A DNA stretch of 60,000 nt from Bolinopsis microptera. Its lineage: Eukaryota; Ctenophora; Tentaculata; Lobata; Bolinopsidae. The stretch is from the NCBI RefSeq assembly GCF_026151205.1, contig NC_087080.1:13527337-13587336 (forward strand). Direction: 5' to 3'. This document shows positions 6,565-48,200 of this stretch, one piece after another. The notes under the pieces are model-generated. The model was not told the DNA's origin, searched no databases, and was given only the letters and a program-made list of their open reading frames with translations. Every line of letters starts with the position of its first letter. The first letter of the stretch is position 1. The translations under genes were made by a program, and so were the position numbers.

Positions 6565-6830
6565 TGAGAAGTGGTACTGGAATCGTCCGCACTAACCTTG
6601 TCATAGGTTTAGTCTCCATCATCAATTATACACTTTTATTTTCAATGGTTTAATTCGATAGTTCGTTATAATAGACTTCACACTTGCATTTATTTGATGA
6701 GGGCGGTACTGCCAACTGCGGTATGTACAATTTAATAATTTGTTTCAATACTGATCGAACTGTGACCGACGGCCACACTTGTACTGCAGAAAACTTTATG
6801 GACGTCCAGAATAGTTTAATATAGCTTGTC

Positions 6831-6885
6831 TTACTGGGCCGCGCTCAGCCTGTCATTCCGCCTAATCTCTATGTTTGGGATTCCG
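6831..6885 (+). repeat. Repeat flanking the captured sulfotransferase fragment (left copy)
   Basis: TTACTGGGCCGCGCTCAGCC followed by TGTCATTCCGCCTAATCTCT. The same block occurs at 7343-7384 in the same direction and at about 8897-8937 inverted. The final 25 bases are duplicated in tandem just where the sulfotransferase copy begins. Confidence 0.8.
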
Positions 6886-7320
6886 CCTAATCTCTATGTT
6901 TGGGATAACGAATTCTGGGAGACATTCCATCCCGGTCGGTTATAAAGAACCACCAGTAACTAACGCAGACACAACTGCCAAACTGAATCCTAAAACTAAA
7001 TTCATATTCTCATTGCGGGACCCTATCAATCGGATGAGATCAGCGTACCAGTTTTTCTGTTCGTTTACCGGAATATACGCCTGCGACAGACCGATAACTC
7101 CGGAGAAATATCACAATCTAGTGCATAGTGGTTGATGCAGTTGAGATATTTAACACCTGTCTGAAAAACAATACGGTAAGAGCCTGCACCTACAGCACTG
7201 AAACCCACCAGCTAGCGACCCATCTGTACGCAAGTATGTACCACGTGTATATAGCGGACTATATGAAGTTGTTTCCTCGTGACCAGCTAGCTACGTTCTC
7301 CAGATAAGATGGAGTGACTT
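6886..7320 (+). pseudogene. Partial duplicate of the sulfotransferase gene, broken
   Basis: Copy of about 5949-6345 of the upstream gene, covering the 3'-phosphate-binding segment but not the 5' half. I see only two substitutions (near 6985 and 7023) but several small insertions: 4 nt near 6937, 7 nt near 7124, 2 nt near 7289 and 5 nt near 7305. Each makes a short direct repeat such as GGTCGGT or AGTGCATAGTG. They destroy the reading frame. The two ends are scrambled and flanked by the same dispersed repeat, so it looks like a recent capture or duplication inside repeat sequence. Confidence 0.9.
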
Positions 7321-10140: not shown

Positions 10141-11146
10141 TTGCACTTTAGTCTCCCTGTGACCTCGGCAAAAGCTACTCACACTATTGTACTTTTCACG
10201 AAGAAATACGTCAGTAGCGTTTTTGAGTTGGAGGATCACTTCGCCGCTTCGACGCGCCGCGCAAACTTTAGCATTCTTACTTCGCATCTGACGAGATCGT
10301 TGCTTTGCAAAGCAAAGCATCAATTTGCAAGGGTTGACATCCAACATCGCGATCGTCAGTCAAGTTTTTGAGCTTTTTATATACTTTTTCTATTCAATTA
10401 AAGCATTTCTTTTTATTCAAAGTTATTAAATTTGAATACATTGCAAAATTCTGAATACATTGTAACCATTTATATATTGTTTGAAAGAAGTTAAAACAAT
10501 GCGCGCGATTTGGGGAGCTGGATTATGCTTTTGGCAAAAATATAACCTGCGCCTTTTTTAATTGACTATTGATAGCTGTTTTGCGCAGCGCCAAACTGAT
10601 AGGGCCTGTCGTGATATCATGGATCGCTTAGGTTCCACCAGGATCTTAGGTTCCACCAGGATCTGGTATGGTAGTCCTCATAATTCTGCGGCCTCTATGT
10701 GTCGTCATCTCGCACAACTCCGAAAAACCGTTGTGAGTTTGGCATGTGAAAATTTGCAGCCCTCCAGACATCGATTGGGTTAACGAGTTGTCGTACGTCA
10801 CCTCAAGATCGGGTGACAGGGGGCTGAACAGGCCAGAACCCAATTGATTGGATCTGAGGTCACGTGATTATGAGCCTGAGGTCACGTGACTATGACGTCA
10901 CCAGAGCTCGTTCTCCGTTTCCCGCTCTTTAGACCAGGTGAGCTTGCATGCTTGTGAAAGTGGGTGTAAGTTACATCCAATTACCCCTAATAGAATGAAG
11001 ATTTATTTTCTGACAGAAAGCTAGAAATTTACCAAAATATCGACTTTGTTCAAAATTTATTTTGATGATCACTCCTAACCTAAAATTGCACGAGAAATCG
11101 ATTAAACTTGGTTTCAGAACTCAACAATGCTTCCTTATGCCTTAAG

Positions 11147-11169
11147 GGGGGGGGGGGGGGGGGGGGGGG
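11147..11169 (+). repeat. G23 homopolymer
   Basis: Uninterrupted G-run at the inner border of the left MULE TIR. It could form G-quadruplexes, and its length is likely unstable. Confidence 0.9.
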
Positions 11170-12460
11170 TTCACCCTGATATTTTTGTGAAACTTAGTTT
11201 CGAGATAGCAGTTAACCAACAAACTAGGACCGGTGACCGAACTTTTGAGGGGGTCCCGGACCCCAACCGCCAAACGGTGCCCGCGGGGCAGCCACGCCCA
11301 TATTTGGTCCAAATCAGGCCCAATTTAGCCAAATACCCTGAACATGCCCAAAACCCAAATTTTAGGTGCTCTTTTTGTAGCTAGTGGTCCCCTGAACTCG
11401 TATATGAATTTTCATCAAGATTGGACAAAAATGACTGAGTTATGAGCCAAAAACCATATGACCATATTTGGGCATACGCACCAAATTTGATCGATTTTGG
11501 CCCATAAATTGGTCAAATATCAATATTTTTGAATGAAACCAACTTTATATGGAAGGTAAGCCTATACTACACATTCTCTATGATTATCAGCTCAATATCT
11601 ACCTAACTGTGGATTCTGTGTTCAAATAGTTGCAAAAAATGAACAAAATCGCCCATTATATATCAGTTCGCGATATTTGCAAAACTGACTTCGCTCAAAA
11701 CAATAGAACTCAATAGGGTTTCAATATTTTTTCATGAAATTTTCAGAATCGACGTAGAATCGCCTCATGACCTTAAGTTTTGTATTAGAATTTTAAGTTA
11801 GGCCTTTAACAAAATTTGGCGGCCAAATTCTGAAAAATGCCCGATATTCTTCAACGGTTGAAAAATTCCGAATCTTATGGTTAAGTAAGAATTTTCATTG
11901 TGTCTTATCGAAAGTGAATGAGAGAAACACTTGTGACAATTTTATTTACTGGTCCTCTTATTTGTAAAGCTATCCTCAATACATTCAATGACAAAGTGTG
12001 ATAACCGTTAAAACAGGGGTCGAATTCACAAAAATAACGTAAACCGTTGATTTCGATTTAAAGCAATCGCCGCTCCTGTCTCTTGATTGCTGATGATGAT
12101 CAGGAACGCATGACGTATAAATATCATCACGACGATTATTGGTCACTCGAAATCGACCCGTTAAGAATGCAATGTAAGTGCGATGGTTTTTTTTTGTGCA
12201 TTTGTTACCTGTTACTAATTAATCCACAGGATCAAAATGTTTATTGTATCGATAAAAATGGATTTTAAGGCATAAGGAAGCATTGTTGAGTTCTGAAACC
12301 AAGTTTACCTTATCGGACCTTATTTGGACGGACATTACATGAACGGACATAATTATGAACGGACATTAATATGAACGCTCGAAGGCATTCAAAACCATCA
12401 AAAATCCGAATGTTATTTTTTTTTAAATTTACGTTTTTTTAATTTCAGCAAATGATTTTT

Positions 12461-12614
12461 AAATCCATTTTTATACAGTAAGTAAGAAAAGCAGTCATTG
12501 AGCAGTAAAAATGTTAAAATATGTGTACATGATCAGTAAATCCATTTTTATACAGTAAGTAAGAAAAGCAGTCATTGAGCAGTAAAAATGTTAAAATATG
12601 TGTACATGATCAGT
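12461..12614. repeat. 77-bp tandem duplication inside the pogo-like element
   Basis: Two near-identical copies of a unit starting about AAATCCATTTTTATACAGTA and ending TGTGTACATGATCAG. Confidence 0.9.
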
Positions 12615-12697
12615 TTCTAATATGACATATCATCTTCATCAAATGGGTTTTCGTGCATGAAATAGTCCATGCTTAAAGCATCAGTGAATTCTAGCTT

Positions 12698-13030
12698 TTA
12701 TATGGAAACCTTTTTTATCAAACTACCCCGGTCCTGCATTTCAGTGTTAACTTTTACAAGCCATTCGGCATGAAGTGGTTTTATCTTAGACAACATAAGG
12801 TTAACCTTAACATCACGTGGAGCTTTCCCAGCACTTATCTGTTTCATTACCTCCCCTGAGTAATATGAGCTATAACAACGTCGGACAATGTCCTTGGCGA
12901 CACGATTTACCGTAATATCTAAAGGCTGGAACAAGTTTGTCATGTTGGCGGGGACTAGTTCATGAACTATGTTGTTGTGTGCCATAATTTCGTTGACTTT
13001 TTCCCGCCAAGTGACCCTTGAAAACATCAT
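12698..13030 (-). pseudogene. DDE transposase fragment (pogo/Tigger, CENP-B/jerky-related)
   Basis: A 110-residue frame containing VPANMTNLFQPLDITVN (about residues 26-42), which matches the block around the last catalytic acidic residue of DDE_1-type transposases. The N-terminal DNA-binding domain and the first two catalytic aspartates are absent from the 976-bp element, so it cannot transpose on its own. Confidence 0.8.
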
Positions 13031-13795
13031 ATACTAGTAAAGTTTTCTGTGCCTCCGGTAGACCAAGGAGAACCTTTCCGTCGTTAACTTACGGCACAAT
13101 AAAGTTCTCAAAGTTGTCATATTCTGGACAAAAAGGTTCGAAATGGAAAAATTTTTGAAAAATTTGAACGGACTTTAACTTGGACGGACATTAATTGAAC
13201 GGACTTTATTTGAACGGACATTAAGATGAACGCTAGGGCCTCCAGCGTTCAGGTAATGTCCGTCCAAATAAGGTCCGATAAGGTAATCGATTTCTCGTGC
13301 AATTTTAGGTCAGGAGTGGTCATCAAAATAAATTTTGAACTAAGTCGATATTTTGGTAAATTTCTAGCTTTCTGTCAGAAAATAAATCTTCATTCTATTA
13401 GGGGTAATTGGATGTAACTACAGTACAGCTGTACTTACACCCACTTTCACAAGCATGCAAGCTCACCTGGTCCAAAGAGCGGGAAACGGAGAACGAGCTC
13501 TGGTGACGTCATAGTCACGTGACCTCAGGCTCATAATCACGTGACCTCAGACCCAATCAATTGGGTTCTGGCCTGTTCAGCCCCCTGTCACCCGATCTTG
13601 AGGTGACGTACGACAACTCGACTCGTTAACCCAATCGATGTCTGGAGGGCTGCAAATTTTCACATGCCAAACTCACAACGGTTTTTCGGAGTTGTGCGAG
13701 ATGACGACACATAGAGGCCGCAGAATTATGAGGACTACCAGATCCTGGTGGAACCTAAGCGCTCCATGATATCACGACAGGCCCTACCAAACTGA

Positions 13796-21250: not shown

Positions 21251-24200
21251 ATGGAGCGTCCTTCTTCCGGTGAGAGAAATATTACAGTTTCTTCAAAACA
21301 AGTTATAATTGACCTGTCCAGTCTTAGTTTTCCATAACTCATAAGTTAATATTTCTGTGCGAACATTTTAAGGTTAACAATATTAAACCCAGTTCACGTT
21401 GGTGATCTTAATTATCATGATTTTCAACTTATCTTATTAATATCATTAATATAAACCAACTTATCATTATACTTAGCACTTACTGAATAGATTTTTCTTC
21501 AGTGCCAGCAGGGCTTCATCTCCCTCGTCCGCCATCCCCCTTCATGAACCGAGGAAATGCGGTTGGAAAGGAGGAAACTTCCAAGGTTATCATTAACGCA
21601 ACATATTATCTGTTTGTCATCATTTATTTACTAGATATGCTAAATCTAATCCACAGTTTGCCCCACACTAGATATATGCTAAATCTAATCCCCAGTTTGC
21701 CCCACACTAGATATGCTAAATCTAATCCCCAGTTTGCCCCACACTAGATATGCTAAATCTAATCCCCAGTTTGCCCCACACTAGATATGCTAAATCTAAT
21801 CCCCAGTTTGCCCCACACTAGATATGCTAAATCTAATCTCCCAGTTTGCCCCACACTAGATCTCTAGATATGCTAAATCTAATCCCCCAGTTTGCCCCAC
21901 ACTAGATATGCTAAATCTAATCCCCAGTTTGCCCCACACTAGATATGCTAAATCTAATCCCCCAGTTTGCCCCACACTAGATATGCTAAATCTAATCCCC
22001 AGTTTGCCCCACACTAGATATGCTAAATCTAATCTCCAGTTTGCCCCACACTAGATATGCTAAATCTAATCCCCCAGTTTGCCCCACCACAGCTGATGGC
22101 AGATCTGAAGAAAGCGAACTTTAGTCTGAAGCTGAAGATATATTACCTGGAGACAACTCTGAGCAAAGTGTCCGGAACAGAACAGTTTGATGTCCTCACT
22201 GAGGTTTCAATGAGTATAAATAAATCATAAGTACCATGGCAACAGTTATATTACCACACATTTAAATGGAATTTTTCCCATATATATAACATATTTGTCT
22301 AGGACGTTTGACAGTTTGGGAAAAACACTTACGACATTGATAGTCATTCAAATAGAATTAATAACTTTTTCATGTTTGCAGACTTTTGAGTTCGCTTTTA
22401 TATAAATTAAAAAATTATCATACTTTTCTTGTATATATTATAGTATGAGATGTTAAAGTTGTACTACATATGTATCTACATATGTACTACAATGTGCCTT
22501 TGTTTTTTAATGATTTTCTGATAAATCCATCCTTCAGAATGTTCAGCTAAAAGTTGAAAAAGAAAATCTGGCAAAAGAATTATCTACAAACAAGGAGCTC
22601 CTCATAAAAGCCTCGTAAGTTGACCCAAAAACTATTATTTTAAGAGAAGACTTGTGTTATAACTTAGATATATAATGTAAGTGACTTCTGTTTGAGGCGT
22701 GTAACATGCTCGCTATCAACCGATCTATTGTCCTTGATTTGAGCTGGGCAGTGTTTTAATCATTTGCACGTCGAAAATCTTCGATGATTGTTCAAATGTG
22801 ACAACTACAAGTGGCCTTTAAGTTTAAGACTGGATTCCTAGGTTTATTGTCAAAATTCATTCGTTTATTGAAAAAGTATAATGTAAACACTCTAGTTCTT
22901 ATCAGTTATCGCTGCTAACCAAGCATGAGCAAATACTGTTAGATCCAGCTTGATAGTTCTCAAATAAGATTATAATCAATTTAACATAATATATAACATA
23001 AAGTATAGAGTATTCATATTGTATAAAGTATTGAGTATAAGACTACATTGTGCCACTCTACAAGGTGAAGGATTTACAGTAACGGTTGACGTGTCCCACA
23101 TTCACTTGGTACACCCACACTGCACACATCACACTGCACAGTGTGTGGCTGCTGCTTGAGACCTGTTAAAACATGCCCCACTCGTCACCTCACTGCTACT
23201 GTATCCATATACTCTACATCTGAAAATAATGGTGTAATCTGACATGCAGGAATCATCATTTTTGACATGATTAGACGAGATTAGGAGAGTTTTATTGGCC
23301 CTGATGTGTTGTTTGATTATGTAACGAGCTGTTCTATTGGAAATGGAAAATATTGTGATTGAAAGAGTGTTCTAGTGGTTGGAAACTTAGTAATGTTTTA
23401 CCGTCTACATAACCACAATCAAATCAAGTTGTAATGACATAAACATAATCTCACGTCATCATAAATATGGGGGGGGGGGTCAGGGGTGTCACGTCCGTCT
23501 ATGTCCGCTTGTCTCATAGAATCCAAAAAGGACAGGACATAGGCGGACATAGGCGGACATAGGCGGACATAGACGGACATAGGCGGACATAGGCGGACAT
23601 AGGCGGACATAGGCGGACATAAATGGACACCTAAATTGCTAAATAAAATGTTAAATTTTTGCTGTTATAGGGGGGATCATGTTTTTGTCCGTTCGGTACC
23701 CTATATTTTCAAAACGGACAAAAAATAGAGCGGACAAAAACGGACAAAAATGGACAAAAACGGACAAAAATGGAAATAACATTTAGATGCTTCCTCCTCC
23801 TACTCTTCCTCCTCCTCCCCCTGGGTCTTCCTGATCTTCCTCAGTCCTCTTCCTCCTCCCCTCCTCAGTCCTCCTCCTATTCCTCCTCCTCGTCCTCAGT
23901 CCTCCTCATCAGTCCTCAACAGTCCTTCTCCTCCCCAGTCCTCCTCCTCCTCCTGAGTCCTCCTCCTGGGTCCTCCTCCTCCTGGGTCCTCCTCCTCCTC
24001 TTCATCCTCCTCAGTCCTCCTCCTCATCCTTCTCCTCAGTCCTCCATCCTCCTCCTCAGTCCTCCCCCAGTCCCCCTCCTCCTCCTCCTATTCAGTCCTC
24101 CTCCTCCTCCTCCTTCTCAGTCCTCCTCCTCCTCCTGAGTCCTCTTCCTCCTCCTCTTCCCTCTCAGTCATCCTCCTCAGCCATCCTCCTCAGTCCTCCT

Positions 24201-27200
24201 CCTCAATCCTCCTCCTCCTGGGTCCTCCTCCTCATCTTCATCCTCCTCCTCTTCCTCCTCGGTCCTCAGTTCTCCTCCTTCTGGGTCCTCCTCCTCATCC
24301 TTCTCATCAGTCCTCCTCCTCCCCAGTCCTCTCCCAGTCCCCCTCCTTCTCCTCCTCCTATTCAGTCCTCCTCCTCCTCCTCCTCCTCAGTTCTCCTCAG
24401 TCCTCCTTCTCATTTCTCCTAAGTCCTCCTCCTGAGTCCTCCTCCTGAGTCCTCCTCCTCTTCCTTCTGAGTCCTCCTCCTGAGTCATCCTCCTCCTCCC
24501 TCTCAGTCATCCTCCTCAGTCATCCTCCTCAGCCATCCTCCCCAGCCATCCTCCTCAGCCATCCTCCTCAGTACTCCTCAGTCCTCCTCCTTCTCAGTCA
24601 TCGTCAGTCCTCCTCCTCAGTCCTCCTCAGTCCTCCTCCTCCTCCTGAGTCCTCCTCCTCCTCCTCCTCCTGGGTCCTCCTGGGTCTTCCTGATCCTCCC
24701 CAGTCCTCTTCCTCCTCTCCTCCTCAGTCCTCCTCCTACTCCTCCTCCTCGTCCTCAGTCCTCCTCATCAGTCCTCAACAGTTCTCCTCCTCCCCAGTCC
24801 TCCTCCTCCTCCTGGGTCCTCCTCCTGGGTCCTCCTCCTCCTGGGTCCTCCTCCTCCTGGGCCCTCCTCCTCCTCAGTCCTTCTCCTCCTCCTCCTCAGT
24901 CCTCTTCCTCCTCTTCCTCCTCTTCCTCCTCTTCCTCCTCTTCCTCCCTCTCAGCCATCCTCCTCAGTCCTCCTCCTTCTCAGTCCTCCTCAGTCCTCCT
25001 CCTGAGTCCTCCTCCTCCTCAGTCATCCTCCTCAGTTCTCCTCCTCCTCCTAGGTCCTCCTTCTGGGTCCTCCTCTTCCTGGGTCTTCCTGATCCTTCTC
25101 CTCCCTCTCAGTCATCCTCCTCAGTCATCCTCCTCAGTCATCCTCCTCAGCCATCCTCTTCAGCCATGCTTCTCAGCCATCCTCCTCAGTACTCTTCAGT
25201 ACTCTTCAGTACTCTTCAGTCCTCAAAATGTTTGTCCGCTAATGTCCACCAATGTCCGCTAATGTCCACCAATGTCCATCCAAGTCCGCCAATGTCCGTC
25301 CGGGTCCGCCAATGTCCGTCCAAGTCCGCCAATGTCCGTCCGAGTCCGCCAATGTCCGTCCGAGTCCGCCAATGTCCGTCCGTGTCCGCCAATGTCCCAA
25401 AAAACACGTCCGTTGTCTCATAGAATCCAAAAAGGACAGGACATAGGCGGACATAGACGGACATGACACCCCCCCCCAATATGTCAACAAAGTTAAGCAG
25501 AGAAGAAGAAAAATTATCTTGCTATATAGCTCATAACTAGGGAGGATTTTAAAGTTTCCGAGACATTGATAGAGTTAACTTCCTTGGTGAGCAGGTGCCA
25601 TAACTTGGCTGCTTTCACTCCAAAAGAGTCTTCTTAGTGGGTCGAAAGAAGAATTGTGCCTTTTCATTAAATGTAGGCACAGTAGCTTTTACGCCGTCCC
25701 GAGAGCTTAAACTGTATGTTGATGATGTTAGGAACTAGTCCATTCATCATCTTCCATGTATGGATTAAAATGAATCACTCTCTGCGTCTCTGCAATGATA
25801 TCCAGTTTCTGCAGGAATACCCAGTAATCAAGATTCTGGCAGCCACTGATCCGACGAGTTTGGATTATTTCAATAGTTTTAATATCTAATGATTTTGTAT
25901 TCTGTAAGACTTATCGTCGTCCTACGGGCTACGTCAAAATACCTGTAGACAAAGTGTTGCCGCAACTTTATTGGCCAAGTACTACAAGAATAGTTAGTCT
26001 AGGATCCGTATCTTCTATTAACGTCACGCATCCTGGTGCTGGGATAGAAGTTACACTGTATTATAATATTAATATTTGGATATAAATAGATCTGATGAAA
26101 GTTTGAGCGAAGGTCCGTAATTTGAGGTACGGATATGTATCTAAATATTATGTAGATATGTCTAGATACGGTTTAAATGTGTGCAGTTTGTGTGCGAATA
26201 GGGTATACTGCGATATAAAAGAACCTCTATAATATTCTGCTATATTATACTTGATAGGGTATAAAAGTACCTCTATATTCTGCTATATTATAGGATATAA
26301 AATATTAAAAGAACCTCTATATTGAACTTGTTGAGCAGCCAGTATATGTGGAGAGATCTATACGCCACGTTAATAGGATCCTAACATTTAAACAATAGAT
26401 CTCTCACTACAACCAATGCAACACCAATATTGTTGCTAGGGAACAGGGTCGACATACTTTTGTTATCTGCACACACACACACACACACACACAATCGTGG
26501 GACAATAGTGGCTAACAAGAGTTGTGTTTTAACGTCTGTTAATTATGAGTCCTCTGTCACACTTCGGACTAAATCAGGTCCAATCCTGCTTTTAGTGTCC
26601 TGTGTGACATATCAATTGTATATGATCAGCTGGGTAAATATCCTGGTCCAATTTAAACTGGTATCGTGGCATTACGTAATACAGTGGTACGCCACAAAGT
26701 ACGCCTCATAGTACGCCCCATAGTACGCCTCACAGTACGCCTCATAGTACGCCCCATAGTATGCCCCATAGTACGCCTCATAGTGCGCCCATAGTACGCC
26801 CCATAGTACGCCTCATAGAACGCCTCATAGTACGCCCCATGGTACACCCGTCACGATTGAGTCTGAGATTAGCCAGAACTAACCGCTTGAATTAGTCAAA
26901 GCCAGTCGCAACTTTTCAGCGATATCATCAGGGATTGTAATACGTGAAGAGAACTTGAAGCCTGGAGAATGTTTAATCTGGAAGTGAGCCATGAAGACAT
27001 GGTGGTTGCATGAATTAATATCACGAGTGTACTGTGTAGTCTCGGATCTTGTAGTCTCATTTTACTGTTCTAGACCAAATTTGGTACTCAAAGAATCTAG
27101 TAAACAAAGGCCTCTACTTATTTTAATAGTTCAATGTAAGTTAATGTCTCCGTGTAGTGTTGTTTCCCCAATGCGATGTCATCCTATGAATTGATTACCC

Positions 27201-30200
27201 GATTAGCCGTCCTGTCCAATGTGTCCCTCAACTTTGTTAGCTAGTAAAATAGCACTGTGCAGTCAACTAAACCAAATTATATAATAGCCTAAATTCATAG
27301 GGACGTGACATGCAGGGTCATTGGCTAATTACAATCACGTGACCTTTTTCCTGGCATCTTATTAGTCTTCTCTCCTTGCTGTCCGATCCAGCGCTACGAA
27401 AATTTTACCGAGCATCAGTATATTGACTCGTGGTATTGTGTATCTTAGTGTACTTGTGTGTGTTTGGAATTGTATTAGAGCTGGTCTGGTTGAGTTGTTA
27501 CTGAAATCATCTCGTTTAAACGCTATACAGGGATAGCTAGAGGTGGAAGGAGAGGAAAAGAGGGCCTTTTTCTTGTTACATGTCGTATGACTTGGCTTTT
27601 CGTTTGATCAACGACAATTGGTTTCAAACGGGACAGGAACTTTATAACCCTTATCATGTGGTACAGGGAGAGTTTGATAATCCTGCCCACGGGTAAATTA
27701 TATTACTTTGTTTTGTGTTTGATTCTATGTTGATTAGGGGTATTTAGTGTGTGTTATGTTGAGGTAATTGGCTAATTAGCGTGTATGTGTGTGTGCCCTA
27801 TTTTGCATAATTATAAATTATTCAATACACACTGATGAGATATTCTGGTGTCTTTGTTTTTAAGTTTCCTCCCCTACATGCACTTCAGTTACCATATGAG
27901 TGAGATCCGTAATTCCAGCCTTTCAGACCACGTCTTATCATATCTTCCAATAGATGACAGTCTTCCAGTAAACGATAGTTTTTAATAAGCATGACAAAGT
28001 TAATACTTCAATACGGTTAATTAATCATTAATCATTAATCATATTTAATAAGTATAGTGTCCTACTGACTGGTACAGGTATTATAAAAGAACTAATTTAA
28101 CCGAATCTAATGAGATTTCAATTGACAATATAATGCTGACAGCATCGTAATCCCTTGGGGATAAATTTAAAGCAATGCATGGCTGTCAACAAATACAACT
28201 GTCAATATCACACCGAGTTTATAATCAATCTGTCATGAATACTTGACTGTATATTGGTATCAAATCAAATCAAATAATAACGCCACAAACGTCATCACTC
28301 GTCACCATACAAATTTCTACAAACATATTTGTATTAAACACATCTTGCTGTTTTAAAACTTGGCTTTATTTCAGATCTGTGGTGGACAGCTTATCTTCAA
28401 ACCAAGGGAACCAACAAAAGGTCAGTACGTATAGTTCGTGGTGAATTTGATTATATTGAATTCACCAAATATTAGCTGTTTGAGACGAAGTTTTTGTCTT
28501 CCTGTAACTATTGTAGATGCCATAAAACCAGATTTAGTTAGCTGTGTTATGTAGAAATGGAAACCTTAGTCCTTACAACCTTAGTTCCTCACTTGACGAC
28601 ACAGTGAACCCTGCTGCTCCAGCAGCTCCAGAAGTTAAGCTGCCGTTTGAATTTTGGTTTTATAAAAGCCGTAGAGAAACAGATTTAACCGGTTACCTGA
28701 GGATGAATTTCGATATTTCTCGCCCTTGCATGGCGACCAAACCTTACAATTTGCCGCCCTCTGTTCGAAGAAACGTAGCGCGCGGCGCCAATCGGTATGC
28801 TTCTGTTAAAAGTTTTTCGCGCTCGCAGTTACTACGACTTCCGAAAATTTGACGAAAATTCGTGCCAAATTTGGCTAAAACGCAATCAGCTAATTATAAT
28901 CAATCTATAATACGACCTTTTGTGTCGACAGTTTTTTGGTTTGAACGTTGTGAGCGTGTTTCTGGCCGATATATACCATAGCATGTGTCATCCAATACGA
29001 ACGCACCATGGAGTTATTGTGGCGGGAAATTTAAACACGTGGGAAATATTTTCCGATATAAACAAGGCCGAAGGAGCTTTGTTGACTTTATTAATCATCG
29101 AATTTATTGAATACTTCATACCATATGCTTATTTGTAATTGTTCATTATAAATACACAGGACAATAACTTATAATTTCAAATTTCCCAATCTCTAAATTC
29201 CGCATCGTCTCAACTCTTAGACCCGTGACTACACCAGCATCATGGAAATGGTCCAACCTTTCTACTATACCTAATCAATGCATCGAATTTTATATCATCA
29301 AAAGCATTTACTAATTTTATAAGGCTGTAACACATCGTTAGATTGTTGCGATTGTAGCATTATCGTTAAACGGGTCCAATAAATTCATAACAGACTTCAA
29401 ACACAATTTTATGCTTTACATGGGACTGTTTATTATGCTGTTTTTTCTTTACATTCAGCTTTGCGCAGTGGCATTACCATAGTTAATGAGGTCCAACCGA
29501 GACGTGGTTATTGCTAGTTGAAAACTAATCCCAATATCCCGCTATTGCGATCTTTCATTAGAGAGCTCTAGCAATTTTTCCTGGGCTGCTGGTCAGCCCT
29601 TCCTTAAAACTTAGAACTTGACATGACTAGCCGTTTTCATCACTAGTTTAGCGAATATTTGTTGCCGTTTTATATTATATCTTGTCTTGTCTGAGATCAT
29701 ATTAATTATACCGAATTTCTCGTCAGTGATTGTTTTTTTGACTGTCAATGAAGCAAACTCAATTAGAATTATGATCATGAACTTTTTTGTTGTTTTGTAG
29801 AATCTAAGAAGCTCGATTACGTTTAAAATGTGGTAAATATAATTCAGTAAATTTCTATCAGCAAACTGCAAAAATCATCTGAACAACAGTTCGACTTTGA
29901 AACCATTGAGAAGCAAACCACTAACGATATACTTAATATGATGATTGAATTTTAAAACAACTATCATGGCATTCAAGTTCGTGTGTTTATTTGTGTGATT
30001 TAGTTTGTTGACAAGCAAAACCACTTATTTGAAGATCAGATAACTCTGAATGGTAGATAATAATGAAGATATCTTAATAGAACTTACTATGTGAGACTAA
30101 ATTCCTTGCAGTGGCTATTACCAGCGGTTTAGCGGTTACATAATATTAAAATAGCCAAATGACATGAACTTAAAATAATGCGATGAAAAATCGACTTGAA

Positions 30201-33200
30201 GTTGAGATGGTACATTAACAAGTAGAGATGGTACATTAACAAGTAGTACAAAGTTATCTGTTGGAGTTGGAAATACAGCATGTCACTTTAGAATTGGAGT
30301 TTTATATTTTCAGAAAATTTCTAGAAATTAAACAGATTCTTATTCAAGAAGAATGTTAATATCGAGAATGATTTTTTAAAGAAATTTGAAGATTTGTAAC
30401 CTCGTACATTGTACTCATAAAACCTAGTTCCGACTAACATTCATCAGACACTTCAACTCTAACATTTTCTACCCATTTCCTGATCTCATCATACCGTTTT
30501 GCGAATACCTCAGACTCTTACGTTGTCTAGAACCGCTAGGATTGAGCACCACTGAGCCTTGAACAGAGGTTAAATGTAACACTTTAAACAGCTCTGTCTT
30601 GAGTTCGCTGCTCCTCAACACAATGATCAGTGGATTAATAGCTGCGTTAACAAGAGGTAGTGTTAAGAGAAACAGAGGGTAGAGATTCTTGTTGACATCC
30701 TCGTTTATCCTTTTATCAAGGATGAGTGAGATGATGATTTTTGCAACTAACTGGTAAAGTGTTGAGAGACTTGTGCACAGTACAAACAGAAATGTGATGC
30801 AGGTAACGGTTATGGTGACGTATATTTTGCGGGCAGCTGATTCGTTGTTTGGGGCTGGTTTTCTGAGAGATCTTACCAGAATAACAAGACACACCAGACT
30901 CAGAATACAGGGGATGATAAAGGGTATCAAATTGAGGATGAACCCAACTATTAATCCGTAGTATGTTTTGATTCCCTTTTTCTTGTTCGGTGAATCGTAT
31001 TTCTTGTAGAAAATTCCAGCAATTTCCAATCCAAGCTGTCCATATGACATGGAGAAAGCCTTTTTATGTATGTGAGGTCTGGAACTAATCCCGTGATACT
31101 CGAATGCAGCAACAGGAACCCACAAAAGAATATAAAAAGCAACCGAGGACACTGCAAGCTTCATGTTGATTCTATAGAAGGGGAGTTTGGCTTTGACAGT
31201 CCTCGCAACACATAACACAGCATTAACGAAGGTTGATACTCTGTAGAACAAGTTCCAAAGTATAGTAACCACAACTAGGGCTTTGTTTTCTATCATATCT
31301 GGTTCAATGACTGTCTTCTCCCAATACTGTTTGATGATTAGAGCTGATTCGATGACGACGGACATGGCCATGAGTCCATCACTGCTAGACATCAGAAAGA
31401 ACATGCATGGTACAAATTTCCTGAACTGATTTCTATAATGATTCACGACAAAAAGGTTTAGAAGTATGATGGGAACGCAGAGGATTAAGTTCGTTATGGT
31501 GAATGAAAGTCTTGAGATGTTGATTGCGTCTTCAGGTTTATTCCCAGATTCTGATAAGTTGACTCGCAGATTCATTGTGTGAATTTGATTCCTGATAATA
31601 TAAGGTGTGAAGTGACAATTTTCAACAGAGTTAAAGATAATGATTGTATAATTTGCGTCAACTATACTATGTTGAAATGAATGTTCAAAAAATAATGTAG
31701 CAGCACATTATCGGATGTACAAGCAGATTCTGAATATCTTAATAGCAAAACTAATTAGGTGACACAGTCAAGCAATGATGGAGCTGATGTCTGAAAAGTG
31801 TCGAATAGTGAACTAAAGTGCTTGATGATTAGTGTCCAAAATTTCTAGCTGCGAAGAAAAGCAAACGCTCTTTTAAAGTTATGAAAAGATACCGCCGCGA
31901 CGTTTCAATACTTTGAACAACGTTTGAAACGTTTCTTGACTAAACCTAGCTCCAACCTGTAATTTATGTCTTTTTGCCAAAAGATTCCAATTTCTTTTTC
32001 AACTCTACGAATACCCAGGAGTCATCTCCAACAAAAACTTGTATAAACGCTGCAATGCTGAACCATTGTCAGGAAAATTGGCCCGTAGTCGGTGGAGAAT
32101 GTTAGGACATGTTTTGCGGGGTTCTGTTGACGGACCAGCGTTTTCTTCCCTCATTTTTGCCATCAATACACTGGACTTACCAGGGAGAAGAGGAAGACCC
32201 CAAAGCAATCTATTCTCGATGATTGTGCATGATTTATGGACACGTTCATTGAAGTTTGAGGATATTGGTAAATATTAGTGACCCTACTGAATGGCACGAT
32301 GATGTAAAATGTGTCACACTATGAAACTATATAAACCCTCAATGGTTAGGATAATCGTTTCATCCTCTAGATAAACTTTGTCGCATAACGATATCTTTAT
32401 CAGACGATAAGATATCGCTTAAATGCGGCCGGCAGTGAGTTGTAAACTTTGTCACACTATAAAAACGTGACGGAGTTTATATGGACCCCTTGTTGCCGTG
32501 TTTGACCAAATTTTCGAATTTTAAATTCATAGAATAGCTGTATATGACTATTATCTACATATTTAGCGACTTTTTTCCTTAAATGGTAGCACCATGTAAA
32601 CTCCGTCACACATTTAATAAATTTATATGAGGGATGTTTATGACATCCTGACAAGAAATCCCGAATAGTCTAGCATTATTTTGTGAGCTGAATGTGTTTG
32701 GAATTGTTCACATATTTCATTGTTATAGGCAAATACAAATACAGAAGGCAGAAATAGGTAAATTTAGTCACATAAATTTGTATGATATCTCAACATGTGT
32801 GAAATTGAGTAAATATTAGTATACCAACTTAAACACCCTATATTACGTACTATGGATCAATTAACAATATTTCAACCATACGCCGGTCATATAAATTATT
32901 ATATGGCAGTGATATGTTAACATTGGATAAATTTCAACACCTGAACAGGGTAAAAATTTGTAAATTTCGTCACAAAAAAAATATTATAACTTTATTTGCT
33001 CCGTGTTGGCAAAATAACTAATTTATCGACATAGTGATGGTGATAAAGTAACATTATATACTAATTGAGGTATGATTCTTCAAAATAGGGGCAAGAAATG
33101 TAAATTTCGTCACATCAGCCATTGCATTAGTTAGTTAGATTTTCTTTCATATCAACTGCCCTTATTATAGTTGGAATGGATTTATACAGGAAATATAGAA

Positions 33201-36200
33201 ACCCATGCCCATTTTTCATCACATTGAAATTATACTGTTTGGGCAGGAAAAGTAAATTTCGTCACATTTCGGTAAATTAGTGATATCAAACTCAGCATTG
33301 TTAAACTTGAGTTCTGATTTGCTGAAAAATAACCTACCAATAATTCCTGGAAGAATATTGAATTCTAATCGGGGTATGGTTCTTCAAAATAGGGTCAAGA
33401 AATGTAAATTTCGTCACATACGTCATTGTAAAATTTAGATACACTTTCTTTCACATCAACAGTCCTAATTATAGTTTGAAATGATTAATTCAGAGATAAG
33501 GAAATATAGAAACCCTTGCCCACTTTTCATCACATTGAAATTATACTGTTGGGGCAGGAAAAGTGAATTTCGTCACATTTCGGTAACTTAGTAAAATTAA
33601 ACTCAGAATTGTTAAACTTGAGTTCTGATTTGCTGAATAATAACCTACTAATAATTCCTGGAAGAATATTGAATTCTAATCGAGGCATGTTTCTTCAAAG
33701 TCACATCAGCCATTGCATTAGTTAGATAGATTTTCTTTCATATCAACTGCCCTTATTATTATTGTGACAATTTTTACATCAACTGCCCTTAACTTGAATC
33801 AGCTCTATCCGTGCATCGTCCTTATATACAGTTTTCCCGCCTTCCAAACCAAAACCAGATATAAATGATTTCAGCAATTCACCCAAAATTTATATTCCAT
33901 ATAATGTGACAGAATTTACATCATTTCCCAATAAGTGCATATATTTGCTAACTTTTCAAAACAACATATTTTAGGGCCATGATTGGTAGAAGAACCATCA
34001 AATAATGAGTTGAAAGGGTTTTGAGGACACCTCACAGTAGAAAAGAGGTATCGTATTCTGAGTGTGACAAAGTTTACGAAATATTGCCATAAAACCGTTC
34101 GATCCCTGCCCTTTAGCCAAATGTTGTATCATAATTGTTAGAATGACCTAATCTCCTATATTTTAAACCAAAAAATGCTAATTGGGCAGCTATGGTTAAC
34201 ACAGTCACAAAAATGTGACATTTATTACATTATAGTGCCTAAAAACAATAAATTTTATTTCTGAGCCGTGTATATGGAAGGATGGGTCACGTGGCTAATG
34301 TCCAGAACTTCTGAACACGCTATTTTTTTTGGTTTACCAATATCCTTAAACTTCAACATGAACGTGTCCATTTACGATTTCGTATCATTTTGTGACGATG
34401 TTTACATCAACTGCCCTATACTTCAATCAACTGTATCCGTGTATCGTCCTCATATAGAGTTTTCCCGCCTTCCAAACCAAAATCAGATATAAATGATTTC
34501 GGAAATTCACCCAGAATTTCAAATTCCATATAATGTGACAGAATTTACATCATTTCCCAATAGCCAAGTGCATGTATTTGTTAACTTTTCAAAAAAACAT
34601 ATTTTAGGGCTATGATTGGCAGAAGAACTATCAAATAATGAGTTGAAAGGGTTTTGAGGACACCTCACAGTAGAAAAGAGGTCTCGTATTCTGAGTGTGA
34701 CAAAGTTTACGAAATATTGCCTTAAAGCCGTTCGATCACTGCCCTTTAACCAATGTTGAATCATAATTGTTATATTGACCTAATCTACTATATTTTAGAC
34801 CAAAAAATGCTAATCGGGCAGCTATGGTAAACAATGTCACAAAAATGTGACATTTTTTACATTATAGTGCCTAAAAGCAATACATTTTATTTCTGAGCAG
34901 TGCATATGGGAGTATGGGTCACGTGGCTAATGTTCAGAACTTATGAACACGCTAGATTAATATATGTTAAAATTAAACCACTATCGTCAAAAACGCTGTT
35001 TTAGAAATTTACCAATTTCCTCAAACTTCAATGAACGTGTCCTTATGTAAAAGAAATCTTTCTATGTACAATATTTCTTATCTGTATTATCTCCGTAATT
35101 TAGCTTATGACAAGAGATATTGGCAGAAATTACAATGAAGTTTTGATATTTAGTTATTTGTTTTAGGGAAAGATTAGACTTGGGCGTTGGTTTTTTAACT
35201 ATCCCTTGTTTAGAACCTTTATTCATTTTTTATATACTCTACTACATAGATAAAAAAGAATTTGAGAAAATTTGTCAGAAATTAACGGCATCGCCCAGCG
35301 CCCTGATTAAGCGCATATTGTACGAGATAAAAAGTAAACTTTTCAAACGAGTCATTTAAACAGTTATGGTGCTTGTGATGGGTCTTAAACCGACGCAAAA
35401 CCGCGATATCAGTCGCTGATATCTCCAAAATATTCGGAACTTTTGCAAGTATTGAGAATTAGATGAAGCTGCGAATCATCCTAATTTTTAAAATTTTGAC
35501 CATTTTTTAAAACTCATATTACAAAGAAAGAAGTTATTTCAAAAGATGAATGATGAGAATGACTCCCGGGAAACAGCTAAATTGACTCTCAGCCAAACAA
35601 ATGTGAAACACTACAGTAGGGGAGAAATAGATATATTTTGTGTACACTCAGGGTTTCGACATCGCTTCATGATGCGTCGTTCACACGAATAAAACAAGAA
35701 ATTGACTTATCATTTTTAAATTTAGCTACACTCTCACTGCAAGCACATGGATGGGTCATAATGCTCAGTATTAGACCGAAATTTATTATTTTAAAACAGA
35801 ATCTATGATTATTTACCTAAACGTCTTAACAGGAGGATCCAAGGCTTGCAGAGGAGAATGAAGAGCTACAAAAACTCATCAATAATCTTGAAAATGTGAG
35901 TATTTCTGAGTTTGATCTATTTAATTCTGTTTAATTAATAAACGACTTTCATTACTTACATTATCAATTAATTTTGTAAAAACCAGGCGGCGTAACCTGT
36001 AACTACTCACAACTGTGGGGTTACTTTTTTGAAGGTTGTTTTTAAGATATAACGGAGATAAGTTCTTTGTAAGATCATCCTTTATTATACGCAAAACACA
36101 ATGTGCTCTTGAGTCTACTATACAGAGTCTACAGCAGACACTGTTCGACACTCACGTCACTTCTAACATAATAGGGAGATTTAATTTAGTAAGCACAGTT

Positions 36201-39200
36201 TAGGGCAATATGTCACCTGACAAGCAGAGCAAGGATCACCTGCTGTACTCCTTTATAATGTGGAGCGTGTGCCCTCTCCTCGTCTTAGTCATTCTCTCTT
36301 TATCACGTGACATATCAGTCATATAGGAATATCCGTGTACAAAGTTAGCTTTGTTTTCTACTTGCTTTGTTTTTGCTGCAGCATAACCGTTTTTCTGCAG
36401 TTTAACTTGATTATTGCGGATCGTGCAGGATCGAAAATTCGCATCTTACCTCGTTTTCTGTTGACATTATTGTTAATTGACTCGTTACTATTTAACGCAG
36501 TTGTTGGATTCGTGCAATGGATCCACTTAAATTACACATTGGTGAGATCAGACCGCCGCTAGAGTTCTCTTACTCAATTGTAAGTAAGCTTTATGTCATT
36601 AAGAGTCTTAATGACACAATTGATTCTAAAGGATTGGGTCCCATTATTTGTATTTTGTAAACAGCATCCACTGTGCTTGTTTAATGAACAACAAACTATT
36701 TAAGTGTATTGACCATTCAACAACCGAGATCTTTACATCTGAATGTGTCATTTCCGATCTCCGCAAGAGTTGCTGAGCACAAATATCCCATCATTCCATT
36801 CAGTGCTTACAATACAAACAGTAAGATTGCATGTCTGAGAGGATCCTCAATAAGAACTTGAGTTTGACCTATCACAATGCATGATATTATCACGTGGGCG
36901 GTCTTGGACCAATAAAGAACCTGTACTTGGATGTTATGTAGCTGTCTTGAAAACAAAAAACGTGTATTTTGAGTTTTTACTGAATATCTGAAAGATTGTC
37001 TGTAGTTTTCGTTGAAGGTAGAGTGCTTATAGGACCAGAATCCGATTTGGAATGTCTGTTAGTGTTATGACCCTTTTTGAGGTTTGGTGAGAAGTTCAGA
37101 GAATTATCTTTTAGTTTTATTCTGCTTGTTATCTCACGAGATTCCTTCCACTAAGATCCAATAACTTCATTGAACATTCGTTTAGTTCCAAACCATATGG
37201 CACCATGCTGTAGTGGTAGTTAGTTAGGCGTTGTTTTCACAAGATATAATATCGCAGGAACTGTTGAGCGTTGTTTTCACAAGATATAATATCGCAGGAG
37301 CTGTTGACAGCGCGCCAGGACTCAGAGGAGAAGTCGGTGGAGCTGGAACATGTTCACGCTGATTGTATGCTACTGGAGGACCAACTCCTCCTCAAAAATG
37401 AGGTAATAACCAGTGCTGGTCGGCTGCATGGTTGGAATTTGATCTAGTTTAAAGATTAGTTCCTCTATTTGACGTGCCAGATTCTCCAATTTATTGTAAA
37501 TCAACTATATTTAAACCCACAGAACCCTGTACTAAATTTCTTTAAGGCACTGCAAGAGAAAGAAGAGAAAGGAGCTGATGTTAACGAGGACCTTGAGGCT
37601 CTTCAAGCTCAGCTAGCAGCTCAGGAACATCTTTATCAGGTAAATAAGTTTTACGATAAATCAGTAATTTGCTTATCAGAGTTGGACCTGTTTCTATATT
37701 TAAAACTTATGTCTTATGAACGCATCTTGATCTAAAATAAATTTATGTCATCCTGAGGATCAGGTTAGGTTAATTTAATTCAAGATATTCAAATCGTTAC
37801 AACTTTACAAGCAACTTTTGTGCTGTATCCTCTAACATGCTGTAGTTAACCAGTTACCTGTCCCAGACGGAGACGGATGATATGAAGAAGGAACTGGAAG
37901 ATGTTAGGGAGGTTATGATTAAGACGCATGAGGAGAATATCGGCCACAGACTGACTCTCGCTGAAAAGGAAGAGTCCATCAAGGTGGGTAGTTGATCTTT
38001 TTTTGTTTAACGTTTTTTGTTTAACGTTTGTTAACGTTTTTTTTTGACGTTTGTTAAATGTTTAACGTTTTTGTTTAGCGTTGGAACGCCATGCTGTGAC
38101 CTATTTGTTTGAATTCCAGATTTCCGTATTTTTATATTGACATTGTTATGAATTAAAATATGATGTAATTCCTTATAGATCCTTAATATTCGTTACTCGG
38201 GGTCAGTTGATACGACATGCATAATCCATTTTAGTTTCCTTTATTTCTCATTCATTTCTCCTTTATTTAGGTCTCCAATTCTCCTTTATTTTATCACCTC
38301 AGGATCTGACAGACCAGCTCTCTCTTTGTCCACATGGGACATGTTGTCACGGGGACAAAGGAGGAGACGAATCCAGTGAAGCAGGAGATAGTCGGTCTAG
38401 TCTGCTCGAGGCGCTTAGTAACTTTACTTCTACTAATGCTAGGTTGGTTACTTAGTAACTTTACTTCTACTAATGCTAGGTTGATTACTTAGTAACTTTA
38501 CTTCTACTAATGCTAGGTTGGTTACTTAGTAACTTTACTTCTACTAATGCTAGGTTGGTTACTTAGTAACTTAACTTCTACTAATAACTAATGCTAGGTT
38601 AGTTACTTAGTAACTTCACTTCTACTAATGCTAAGTTAGTTACTTAGTAATAGTAACTTCATTTCTACTAATTCTAGGTTAGTTACCTAGTAACTTTACT
38701 TCTACTAATTTTAGGTTAACACTTTAAGTGTTGTCTGAAGTTTTGTGTTATCTTTCTTTTTGTTTCAAATCACCGACTGTGCAATGAAGATTTTCCCTGA
38801 AATGAAAATAAGTTACACACGATAATCGTTAATCATATTATTAATAAAATACATCTTTCTCTAGATTAATAAAATGATAATTTAAACAAGACGCTGTTGA
38901 ATCACCATCCAGTTTGCATTTTGTAGGTCGTAAAGATACAGCTACATTATTTTTACAAAGTAAAACCTAAAACCGACAGCTGCAGATGTCTTTTAGGGTC
39001 ACGTGATATCAATTATGCCCCATTCCCTGCTGCAATAAATTTCTAAATGACAGTATACTCGCCGCTCCCGAATGTATTGAACATTTATTTGCCAGTTGTT
39101 CGTAACATAGTGCACCTGGTGCATGCTTTTTTAATACCTTCTTTGCAAACTGCAGCCAAGTCACTCTAGCAAAGATTATTGCCTCAATTTCTTGTAATTT

Positions 39201-45200: not shown

Positions 45201-48200
45201 TGTCTATTTAAAAATAATATAAAATAAAATCGATGTTCGGAGCAAAAACGGTTTTGGTGTATCTCCCCTTAATATATTATAGTAATTATACAATATAAAT
45301 TATACAATACACGTACATGTAAGTAACACTTTGTATGTCTTAATGTAATCCATCTACCTTTTATAACCGTACGCGTAGGAATAGAATATATAGCATGTTA
45401 ATCATTGTCATTCCATAATTGAATAATTAACATTAATTAATGGTTTAGGAGCTGCGACGAATACACGAGATGATTCATGATCTAATTCGGCAGCTACACC
45501 GCTACAATAACGACACCCACAACCCTCTTCAACTGGCCATGCACGACGAAGGTGAGACATGTTGTTACTTCTTTGTGGTGGAATACTTGTAATCCAGCCT
45601 AGAAAGGGAGGGGCTTTCTAAAACCTAGTTTCATTTTTACACAAAGGCTTTGTGTAAAAGTGGTGCAGGGAGAAGGGGACGGGGGTACGGGGGACCAGGG
45701 GACCGGGACGGGGGAAGTACTATAGTCTATTAATAACCCAGTCAAACTGAAGCTGCAGGAAACGAGGTGGGACATCTTGTTACTTTCTTGTGCAACATTT
45801 CAAAAAGGGTGGAGCTGTGTATATAAAAGAGTATACTTATTACTTGTGGAGGGTTCACAATGTACTGGATGTCAAGTACAGGTGCTTTTAGCTCCATTAT
45901 AGCTGCTCGGAGCGTTAGTTTGTATTTAAAACACCGTCCCCATTTAGCTAATACCTGGAACTTGTCATTTGTCTTGTAGGTTGACTTTTTAGCTCCAAGA
46001 TTAAGATACGGCCAGGCTTACTAGAATTATCAGCAATTCTTTAGTCTGTATGTTCGGGTTGTTCGAGCGTATCTTTGATCCTTTTACCACATTTGGACAG
46101 TAAGGAGGAGCCCTTTATTGAGCAATCCTTGGACTTAATATTACCCGGCAATACAATCAGTGATAATTCTTTTGTTCTCCACCAGTCCCACTGTCCCAGT
46201 GGTCGCCACTGCTGGTTACCAGTATTGTTATTTATCGACCAGATCCTTTCCATTAAGACCTGATAAACAAATTGTAACGCCACCCGGATTTATATAATTT
46301 TTGTGGTGGACTTTACAAAGGGACAATAATACAATCAATCCTCCCCAAAAGGTCATATAATCGAGGATGATTTGATTGAAAGCAGTGTTAATCGTTGTAC
46401 AATCGGGCAGAGCAACGGTAACCCCCGTGGTGAGAACAGGTGTTCTTATATCACGTAGCAAATCTATTAAACTGTCACCCCTCCAATTTAGTGAGTGTGT
46501 CCTGATTTGCAGTGCTTTGCATCGACATCTCCTTCTCTCCCTTCTTAAATCTTTTTTGTGTGGCATCATTCCAACTTTGCTTAACAATTGTTATTTGCCT
46601 TGCGTGTATCTTCTTTCAGTCCTGCTGCAGGAGTTAGCAAGACAAAGGAAGCCTACAGCAACGCCTATATAATAAAATCGGAAAGTAACATTTACCAGCC
46701 TGAGACGTTTCCTTGATCTGGACAATGCTTTGTTGTATAGTGCTGGATATGTTTCGTGTTTTTGGTTCAGTGTATTTGATATGGTCCGGTGCTGCGGTAC
46801 TGTGGAACATTCTGGAGATTCTCCTTAAACTTTTGAAAATCAGGTGTTTAACCAGATTTTGTGTGGGTCCCAAAGCCCATACAATGAAGGAGAAAGAAGT
46901 TATAATCGCTACCCAGATACATCAGGACACCACATTGCCTCAGGTTAAGAGAGAGAAATGGTTCTCTATCTGTGACATCTCCTCTAGAATTATCCTGGCT
47001 TTGGTCGCCTTCTTCTGTGCACTTCTTTCCCGACCTATCTCACTTATCAAATACACCTATCTTTTCAATAAGATATTCTCAGGGAAAATCAAAGCTATTT
47101 CTTCCGTGGTACTCCTCCCGTTTTGGCCGATCATCGTGTTCCTGAACACCCTCATTTTCAACAACCTCTCCTTCCTGCCCATGCTCAATGTAAATGATGA
47201 CGCACTGGAATCCCTGCAGTTCTTCACAAACAACCTGAGTCCTACCGCAAGTGTTCTGTTCGATTTTAGCCAGGAACTGTGTAATTATGTGGGAAATTTC
47301 TACATTCTAGGACCTCATCAAGAAGCGATACAGACCATGTATTGGGACACAGACAAGACGACCAAGGTGTTTTGGAGGAAGCAGCTGAGCGATCAGGGAG
47401 CTAGGATACCTACAGAGATAGGCGTGTGGGACGGAGACAAGTTAGAACTGAAGGAAAAGCTGGAGGAGTACAAATCTCTCCTGATTAAAGTTACTGATTC
47501 ATGTATGGGAATTGGAGACCTGTTCTTGAGGCATGGAAATGACTACAAGTCCCCCGAAGACATCGAGCAGATCTTCCAGAGCAAGTATCCTGGTAAACCC
47601 TGCCTGTTGATAGAGTTCATTGCCGCTCACCCCGATCTCAAGGTTCACTCACTCGACATACTCACTGCCAAAGACCCCACTGGAAATGTTCAACTGGTCG
47701 ACATTGTGGTGTGGGCAGGATCCGCCTCGGAGACATCCCACGGAGCAACCAACTGCTACATGATAGACCCTCACACTGGCTTGACCTGTAACTACGGCAA
47801 GTGGTACAACCCCAACTTCGTCAACACTTCCTCTGAAGGGCTGGGAGTGTACTACCCGGGGGTAGCTGAAGCTGTTGTGACAGCTGTGGAAACACACGAG
47901 AGTTTACCTTACTCGTGGTTAAACGTTGTAGGGTGGGACTGTATGGTGACTGAGGATTCTGATATTGTATTTTTTGAGGGTAACCTAGCAGCCTGGCGAT
48001 GTCCTAGGAGACTGTTCTTGTCGCTTAGCAATTTAATATATTTTATTGGTTATATCAGTTGGGTCGGCAATTAGATTTGTCCTTCTACTTAAGTCGTTTT
48101 AAAATAATGTTGAGTGGGAAACTGGGAACTGGGATATTGAAAAGGATATTATTAATTTGCTGACTAGTATGATGGGATAGAAGTTAGAACTTATTGTGAC

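Follow-up and report, generated by a model that had tools for sequence, protein, structure and literature searches.

A stretch at 27580 to 27692 in the fourth intron of a ctenophore centrosomin/CDK5RAP2-type gene can be read as an alternative first exon that would bypass CM1, but probably this 5.76-kb intron holds such an open frame by chance. On that reading it is coincidence that the ATG frame reaches a passable GT and does so in the phase in which exon 4 ends, and we infer that the stretch is not used. The further claim, that a dedicated promoter in intron 4 gives this animal a CM1-less centrosomin whose N-terminus is lineage-specific, is unlikely. The analysis covers a window of 60,000 nucleotides of Bolinopsis microptera DNA, by which we mean the whole stretch that was analyzed, and all positions are those of the window.

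The host gene and its CM1 exons

The window contains a centrosomin/CDK5RAP2-type gene, the sole Cnn_1N match found in an exon-by-exon profile search of the genome (264.65 Mb, 232 contigs). The match lies at 22096 to 22203 and scores 28.9 bits. Exons 1 to 5, the joins of which are predicted and were read from the splice sites around this match, together encode 112 residues, and the joined model reaches 60.2 bits with Cnn_1N against a Pfam cut-off of 28.5, residues 31 to 97 aligning with profile positions 4 to 70 of 74. Predicted exon 1 (21251 to 21269, forward strand, as are all the exons described here) has the start context ACAATGG, begins MERPSS, ends in phase 1 and enters the Cnn_1N-matching model through a splice-consistent join. 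In the joined model, CM1 begins in predicted exon 2 (21503 to 21585), has its core, LMADLKKANFSLKLKIYYLE, in exon 3 (22093 to 22203) and ends with NVQLKVEKENLAKELSTNKELLIKA in exon 4 (22538 to 22614), which ends in phase 2. The core in exon 3 is the part found by the genome search, and it also matches a CDK5RAP2 CM1 chain in the PDB (E 0.015); the donor of this exon, GAG/GTTTCA, is weak. Because exons 1 to 4 supply 290 bases, the codon for residue 97 is divided between exons 4 and 5; CM1 lies within exons 2 to 4 and its end is the start of exon 5. Exon 5 (28375 to 28420), the first exon that the two proposed transcripts would share, is placed by its in-frame join and splice sites; it is preceded by TTTATTTCAG, reads (S/G)VVDSLSSNQGNQQK and ends in phase 0. 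The preliminary description had recognized a centrosomin gene in which the exons ahead of exon 5 carry CM1 and exon 5 follows exon 4; the Cnn_1N score of the joined exons bears out the identity, and the predicted joins and the Cnn_1N alignment bear out the arrangement. Judged by its sequence, this is an ordinary centrosomin/CDK5RAP2 orthologue that normally makes a product with CM1.

A 37-base minisatellite of 12 copies (21630 to 22087) stops 5 bases short of the exon with the CM1 core. Since it adjoins the acceptor at 22093, a change in repeat length could disturb that acceptor.

Downstream of exon 5, exon-chain prediction, which uses codon scores from exon 6 onward, gives 15 exons between 35833 and 45551, most of them coil-like by eye. 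Predicted exon 6 (EDPRLAEENEELQKLINNLEN; 35833 to 35895), predicted exon 7 (37319 to 37402), which holds the first in-frame ATG past exon 5, and the coil-like predicted exon 8 (37523 to 37639) come from the exon chain together with splice sites; the chain continues with the coil-like predicted exon 9 (37846 to 37983) and with further coil-like exons to about 45.5 kb. The link at 38303 to 38442 overlaps a tandem repeat and is doubtful. With strict splice thresholds the chain came to just four exons, of which one fell within the frame at 46.7 kb described below; the chain given here uses relaxed ones. Pfam gave no match to a 417-residue part of the predicted coil body (E up to 1e-5), nor did the PDB to a 306-residue part (E up to 0.01); the link between CM1 and the coil body rests on phase and position because these body parts lack a Pfam or PDB match. 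Between two groups of coil-like predicted exons lies an uninterrupted stop-to-stop frame of 456 codons (46704 to 48071, forward strand), which matches nothing in Pfam at E up to 1e-5.

Other elements occur within and beside the gene. Predicted intron 5 carries, in sense orientation, a full-length match to the U4 spliceosomal RNA (RF00015, 103.1 bits) at 29457 to 29597 on the forward strand. It is one of at least three U4 matches in the genome, the other two scoring 105.9, with 41 of 18,298 candidates scored. Nested antisense in the same predicted intron is a single-exon open frame at about 30460 to 31575 (reverse strand), with 368 residues from the first ATG, apparently multi-pass-membrane and GPCR-like by eye, for which there is no Pfam match at E up to 0.001. 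Far upstream, a sulfotransferase frame (PF13469) in 4915 to 7304 is followed by a broken partial duplicate at about 6820 to 7304, as read by eye in the translations.

An in-frame candidate first exon in intron 4

The proposed alternative first exon (forward strand) begins with an ATG at 27580, runs for 37 codons plus 2 bases and ends at 27692 before the donor CGG/GTAAAT; it encodes MSYDLAFRLINDNWFQTGQELYNPYHVVQGEFDNPAH. It ends in phase 2, as does exon 4, and both join exon 5 in frame, the junction 27692/28375 reading ...NPAHG SVVDSLSSNQGNQQK. Since exon 4 and the proposed exon share a phase, the two starts are interchangeable on paper. The sequence thus offers an ATG exon with an in-frame join to the first exon after CM1; the preliminary description is correct on this point as sequence arithmetic, and a CM1-less reading from the 27580 start is possible.

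The donor is passable. Scored with weights that are general animal frequencies, not those of this genome, and that give relative values only, it reaches 2.17 and ranks third of six, exons 1 to 5 having 3.9, -1.06, -3.18, 1.26 and 3.04, respectively. Under the same weights, the sites that exons 1 to 5 themselves use range from -3.18 to 3.9 for donors and from -0.27 to 2.05 for acceptors. A favourable start context has a purine at -3 and a G at +4. The proposed exon, with TAC ATG T, has neither and its context is poor; that of cnn exon 1 is ACA ATG G.

Intron 4 also contains a pyrimidine-rich TCC-type array at 23790 to 25195, flanked by short GGACATAGGC- and GTCCGCCAAT-type repeats; the GC skew is -0.506 over 24001 to 26000.

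Frequency of such frames, codon content and homologues

Exons of the same kind were counted, meaning an ATG followed by at least 37 codons and ending in phase 2 at a donor at least as good. When the 3,750 non-repetitive bases of intron 4 were shuffled with dinucleotides preserved, 41 of 400 shuffles held one or more, and 100 of 400 did when any phase was allowed. Ten anonymous 10-kb pieces of the same contig gave 44 such donors per 200,000 strand-bases, 7 of them of phase 2, a phase-2 rate that corresponds to about 0.2 expected per 5.76-kb intron. Six real stretches, comprising both strands of non-repetitive intron 4 and of two parts of intron 5 (22,860 strand-bases, a background that includes predicted exon 6, the U4 gene and partly exons 7 and 8), have phase-2 exons beginning at 1, 0, 0, 0, 0 and 1 ATGs, the proposed exon included. 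Both strands of the whole window hold 14 such donors, 7 of phase 2, again with the proposed one among them. From these counts, such a frame is expected in roughly one intron of 5.76 kb in five to ten. Intron 4 has another ATG frame, of 48 codons (26991 to 27135), with a better donor and a different phase.

The codon content of the proposed exon is intron-like and lends no support to coding use. Its codon score is -0.016 per codon, a value equalled or exceeded by 13 of 34 intronic ATG frames of 37 codons (a background that leaves out predicted exon 6, the U4 gene and exons 7 and 8) and by 215 of 410 anonymous ones, which may include real coding frames. The score was trained on 1,297 codons from three long open frames in the window, two of them without a Pfam match, against introns. 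Twelve of the 20 other exons in the model were scored; 11 of these fall between 0.109 and 0.279, and exon 5, with 15 codons, stands at -0.134. Exons 2 to 4 (0.199, 0.246 and 0.109) are the fair comparison, because exons 6 onward were partly chosen by codon score. The test is weak at 37 codons, and exon 5 is also low. With an earlier codon score, partly trained on the coils of this gene, 16 of 40 background frames, from a background that also includes predicted exon 6, the U4 gene and partly exons 7 and 8, were as good; by frame, that score gave -0.89 for the claimed frame and 0.47 and -7.28 for the two shifted ones.

The 53-residue product has no Pfam relative at E up to 10. In the PDB its one match, a limonene synthase at E 0.11, was taken as chance, and among viral contigs 21 pattern matches were returned, none of which was confirmed. 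A genome search for a paralogue of the peptide, at E up to 10, matched its own locus and exon 5 alone. A repeat origin of the exon was considered and rejected: the 441-base stretch from 27280 to 27720 matches only itself in a genome search that skips very common words.

The ATG-free run and the promoter boxes

The stretch proposed as promoter and 5' untranslated region (27311 to 27579, forward strand) carries ATTGG at 27320 to 27324 and CACGTG at 27336 to 27341, and no ATG begins anywhere in the 269 bases directly upstream of the 27580 ATG. ATG-to-ATG gaps of at least 270 bases number 5 of 391 in nearby, mostly noncoding DNA, a background that likewise includes predicted exon 6, the U4 gene and part of exons 7 and 8. 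When 250 ATG-free upstream bases were required together with frame, phase and donor, 3 of 400 intron shuffles still yielded an exon. Under the same filter the anonymous pieces (200,000 strand-bases) retain 4 donors when all phases are counted and none when phase 2 is required, and the window retains the proposed exon alone. The ATG-free run favours a real leader, but it is suggestive and not a test, because the filter was picked post hoc, after the sequence had been seen.

The window has 25 copies of CACGTG against 6.64 expected, an enrichment of about fourfold. The anonymous pieces of the contig hold 30 copies in 100 kb, and half of these (15 of 30) lie no more than 30 bases from a CCAAT or ATTGG, compared with 6 of the 25 in the window. 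The arms of an inverted-repeat element at about 10.6 to 13.8 kb account for four of the window copies. This element (10597 to 13789) carries paired TCACGTGA sites, and its four listed longest-arm pairs are 96 to 100% complementary, the longest being 188 bases at 99%. Because the box pair is common in this genome, the CCAAT and CACGTG boxes say little about a promoter. The preliminary description had placed an internal promoter here, with these boxes upstream; the boxes are indeed present, CCAAT as ATTGG, but an active promoter is not supported by a pair so common in DNA of the contig.

Isoforms of the family in flies and mammals

The testis isoforms of Drosophila cnn had been put forward in the preliminary description as a CM1-less precedent, and this is wrong. 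As far as the relevant passages of PMC8164090 go, CM1 is present in all Drosophila Cnn isoforms; in testis Cnn-T the difference lies upstream of CM1, and domains for mitochondrial localization take the place of PReM and CM2. The passage on CnnT in PMC6162459 states that it 'retains the CM1 domain', through which the γ-TuRC is recruited (to mitochondria). On these accounts Cnn-T resembles the proposed ctenophore product in belonging to the same gene family and in having an N-terminus peculiar to the isoform. It is otherwise the opposite, keeping CM1 and recruiting γ-TuRCs without PReM or CM2, whereas the proposed product skips exons 1 to 4, which hold CM1. Because CM1-less isoforms are reported in mammals and not in the fly, at least in the portions of the literature cited here, the argument that such isoforms are either older than insects or arose twice has to be recast.

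Two mammalian cases are closer. The mouse isoform Cdk5rap2-V2, inferred from 5' RACE, lacks the γ-TuRC-binding domain according to passages of PMC4556188 (it is also cited in PMC9508486). It belongs to the same gene family, and a start downstream of CM1 drops the γ-TuRC-binding part. Unlike the arrangement considered here, its transcript starts near exon 7, uses a start codon that lies in a shared exon and is known from 5' RACE clones (PMC4556188, same passages); in Bolinopsis the start would be a separate intronic ATG exon, proposed from sequence alone. Myomegalin is closest in design, with isoforms that differ at the N-terminus, one of them without CM1, as summarized in part of a review (PMC4113106). 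In RPE-1 cells the isoform without the CNN1 domain binds EB1 and is associated with the Golgi; the proposed ctenophore peptide is not known to do either. The passages on myomegalin in PMC7349303 contain nothing on CM1-less isoforms, and among the papers listed by a literature search none dealt, judged by title and start of abstract, with an internal promoter for the centrosomin/CDK5RAP2 family. Within these sources, the family is already reported to have isoforms without CM1, and the idea is a known one.

Competing readings of the intronic frame

An intron-like codon score, a poor start context, a box pair that is common and the frequency of such frames in shuffles are all as expected if the 27580 to 27692 stretch is an open frame produced by chance. 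That account, which we think probable, is less comfortable with the ATG-free 269 bases, the failure to detect a repeat, a donor ranking third of six and the CM1-less isoforms of mammals. A real alternative first exon, transcribed from an intron-4 promoter at about 27.3 to 27.6 kb and spliced from 27692 to 28375, would accommodate these features, and we regard it as possible though doubtful. Its product would lack CM1, carrying 37 new residues at the N-terminus ahead of an unchanged coil-like body, and it could anchor or dampen nucleation by keeping scaffold and binding surfaces without recruitment or activation of the gamma-tubulin ring complex. The in-frame junction and phase match with exon 4, the ATG-free bases found in 3 of 400 shuffles, the lack of detected repeat copies, the passable donor and the precedents described in parts of PMC4556188 (mouse Cdk5rap2-V2) and PMC4113106 (myomegalin isoform) speak for such an exon. 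Intron-like codons, the weak start context, a box pair that is not distinctive and the lack of a homologue in Pfam, the PDB, viral contigs and the genome speak against it, as does a chance frequency of roughly 10 to 20 percent once the post hoc filter is set aside.

The weak start context takes on a different meaning if transcription starts in intron 4 but the exon is untranslated or weakly translated, since leaky scanning would then be favoured and a CM1-less protein could be made from a later in-frame ATG. The first such ATG after the junction lies in predicted exon 7, and the start codon of mouse Cdk5rap2-V2 also sits in a shared exon, going by the passages on that isoform (PMC4556188). Exon 7 is itself a prediction, however, and the intron-4 transcription start is putative; this reading is improbable. 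Still less credence, indeed very little, attaches to the stretch as an internal cassette exon that would be spliced in after exon 4 and before exon 5. Three AG sites, giving exon starts at 27543, 27555 and 27561, would keep the exon-4 frame open and in phase, but the tracts before them contain 7, 3 and 1 pyrimidines of 18, respectively, and would make poor acceptors.

The correction of the precedent now carries more weight than the isoform idea itself: the fly testis isoforms keep CM1 and so provide no parallel. The isoform idea nevertheless makes a cheap and well-defined prediction, of one junction and one start region. If it were true, the split between nucleating and non-nucleating isoforms known from mammals would extend to another animal lineage, and would either predate the duplication that gave CDK5RAP2 and myomegalin or be independent of it. 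The separation of scaffold from microtubule nucleation by means of N-terminal isoforms would then not be confined to mammals.
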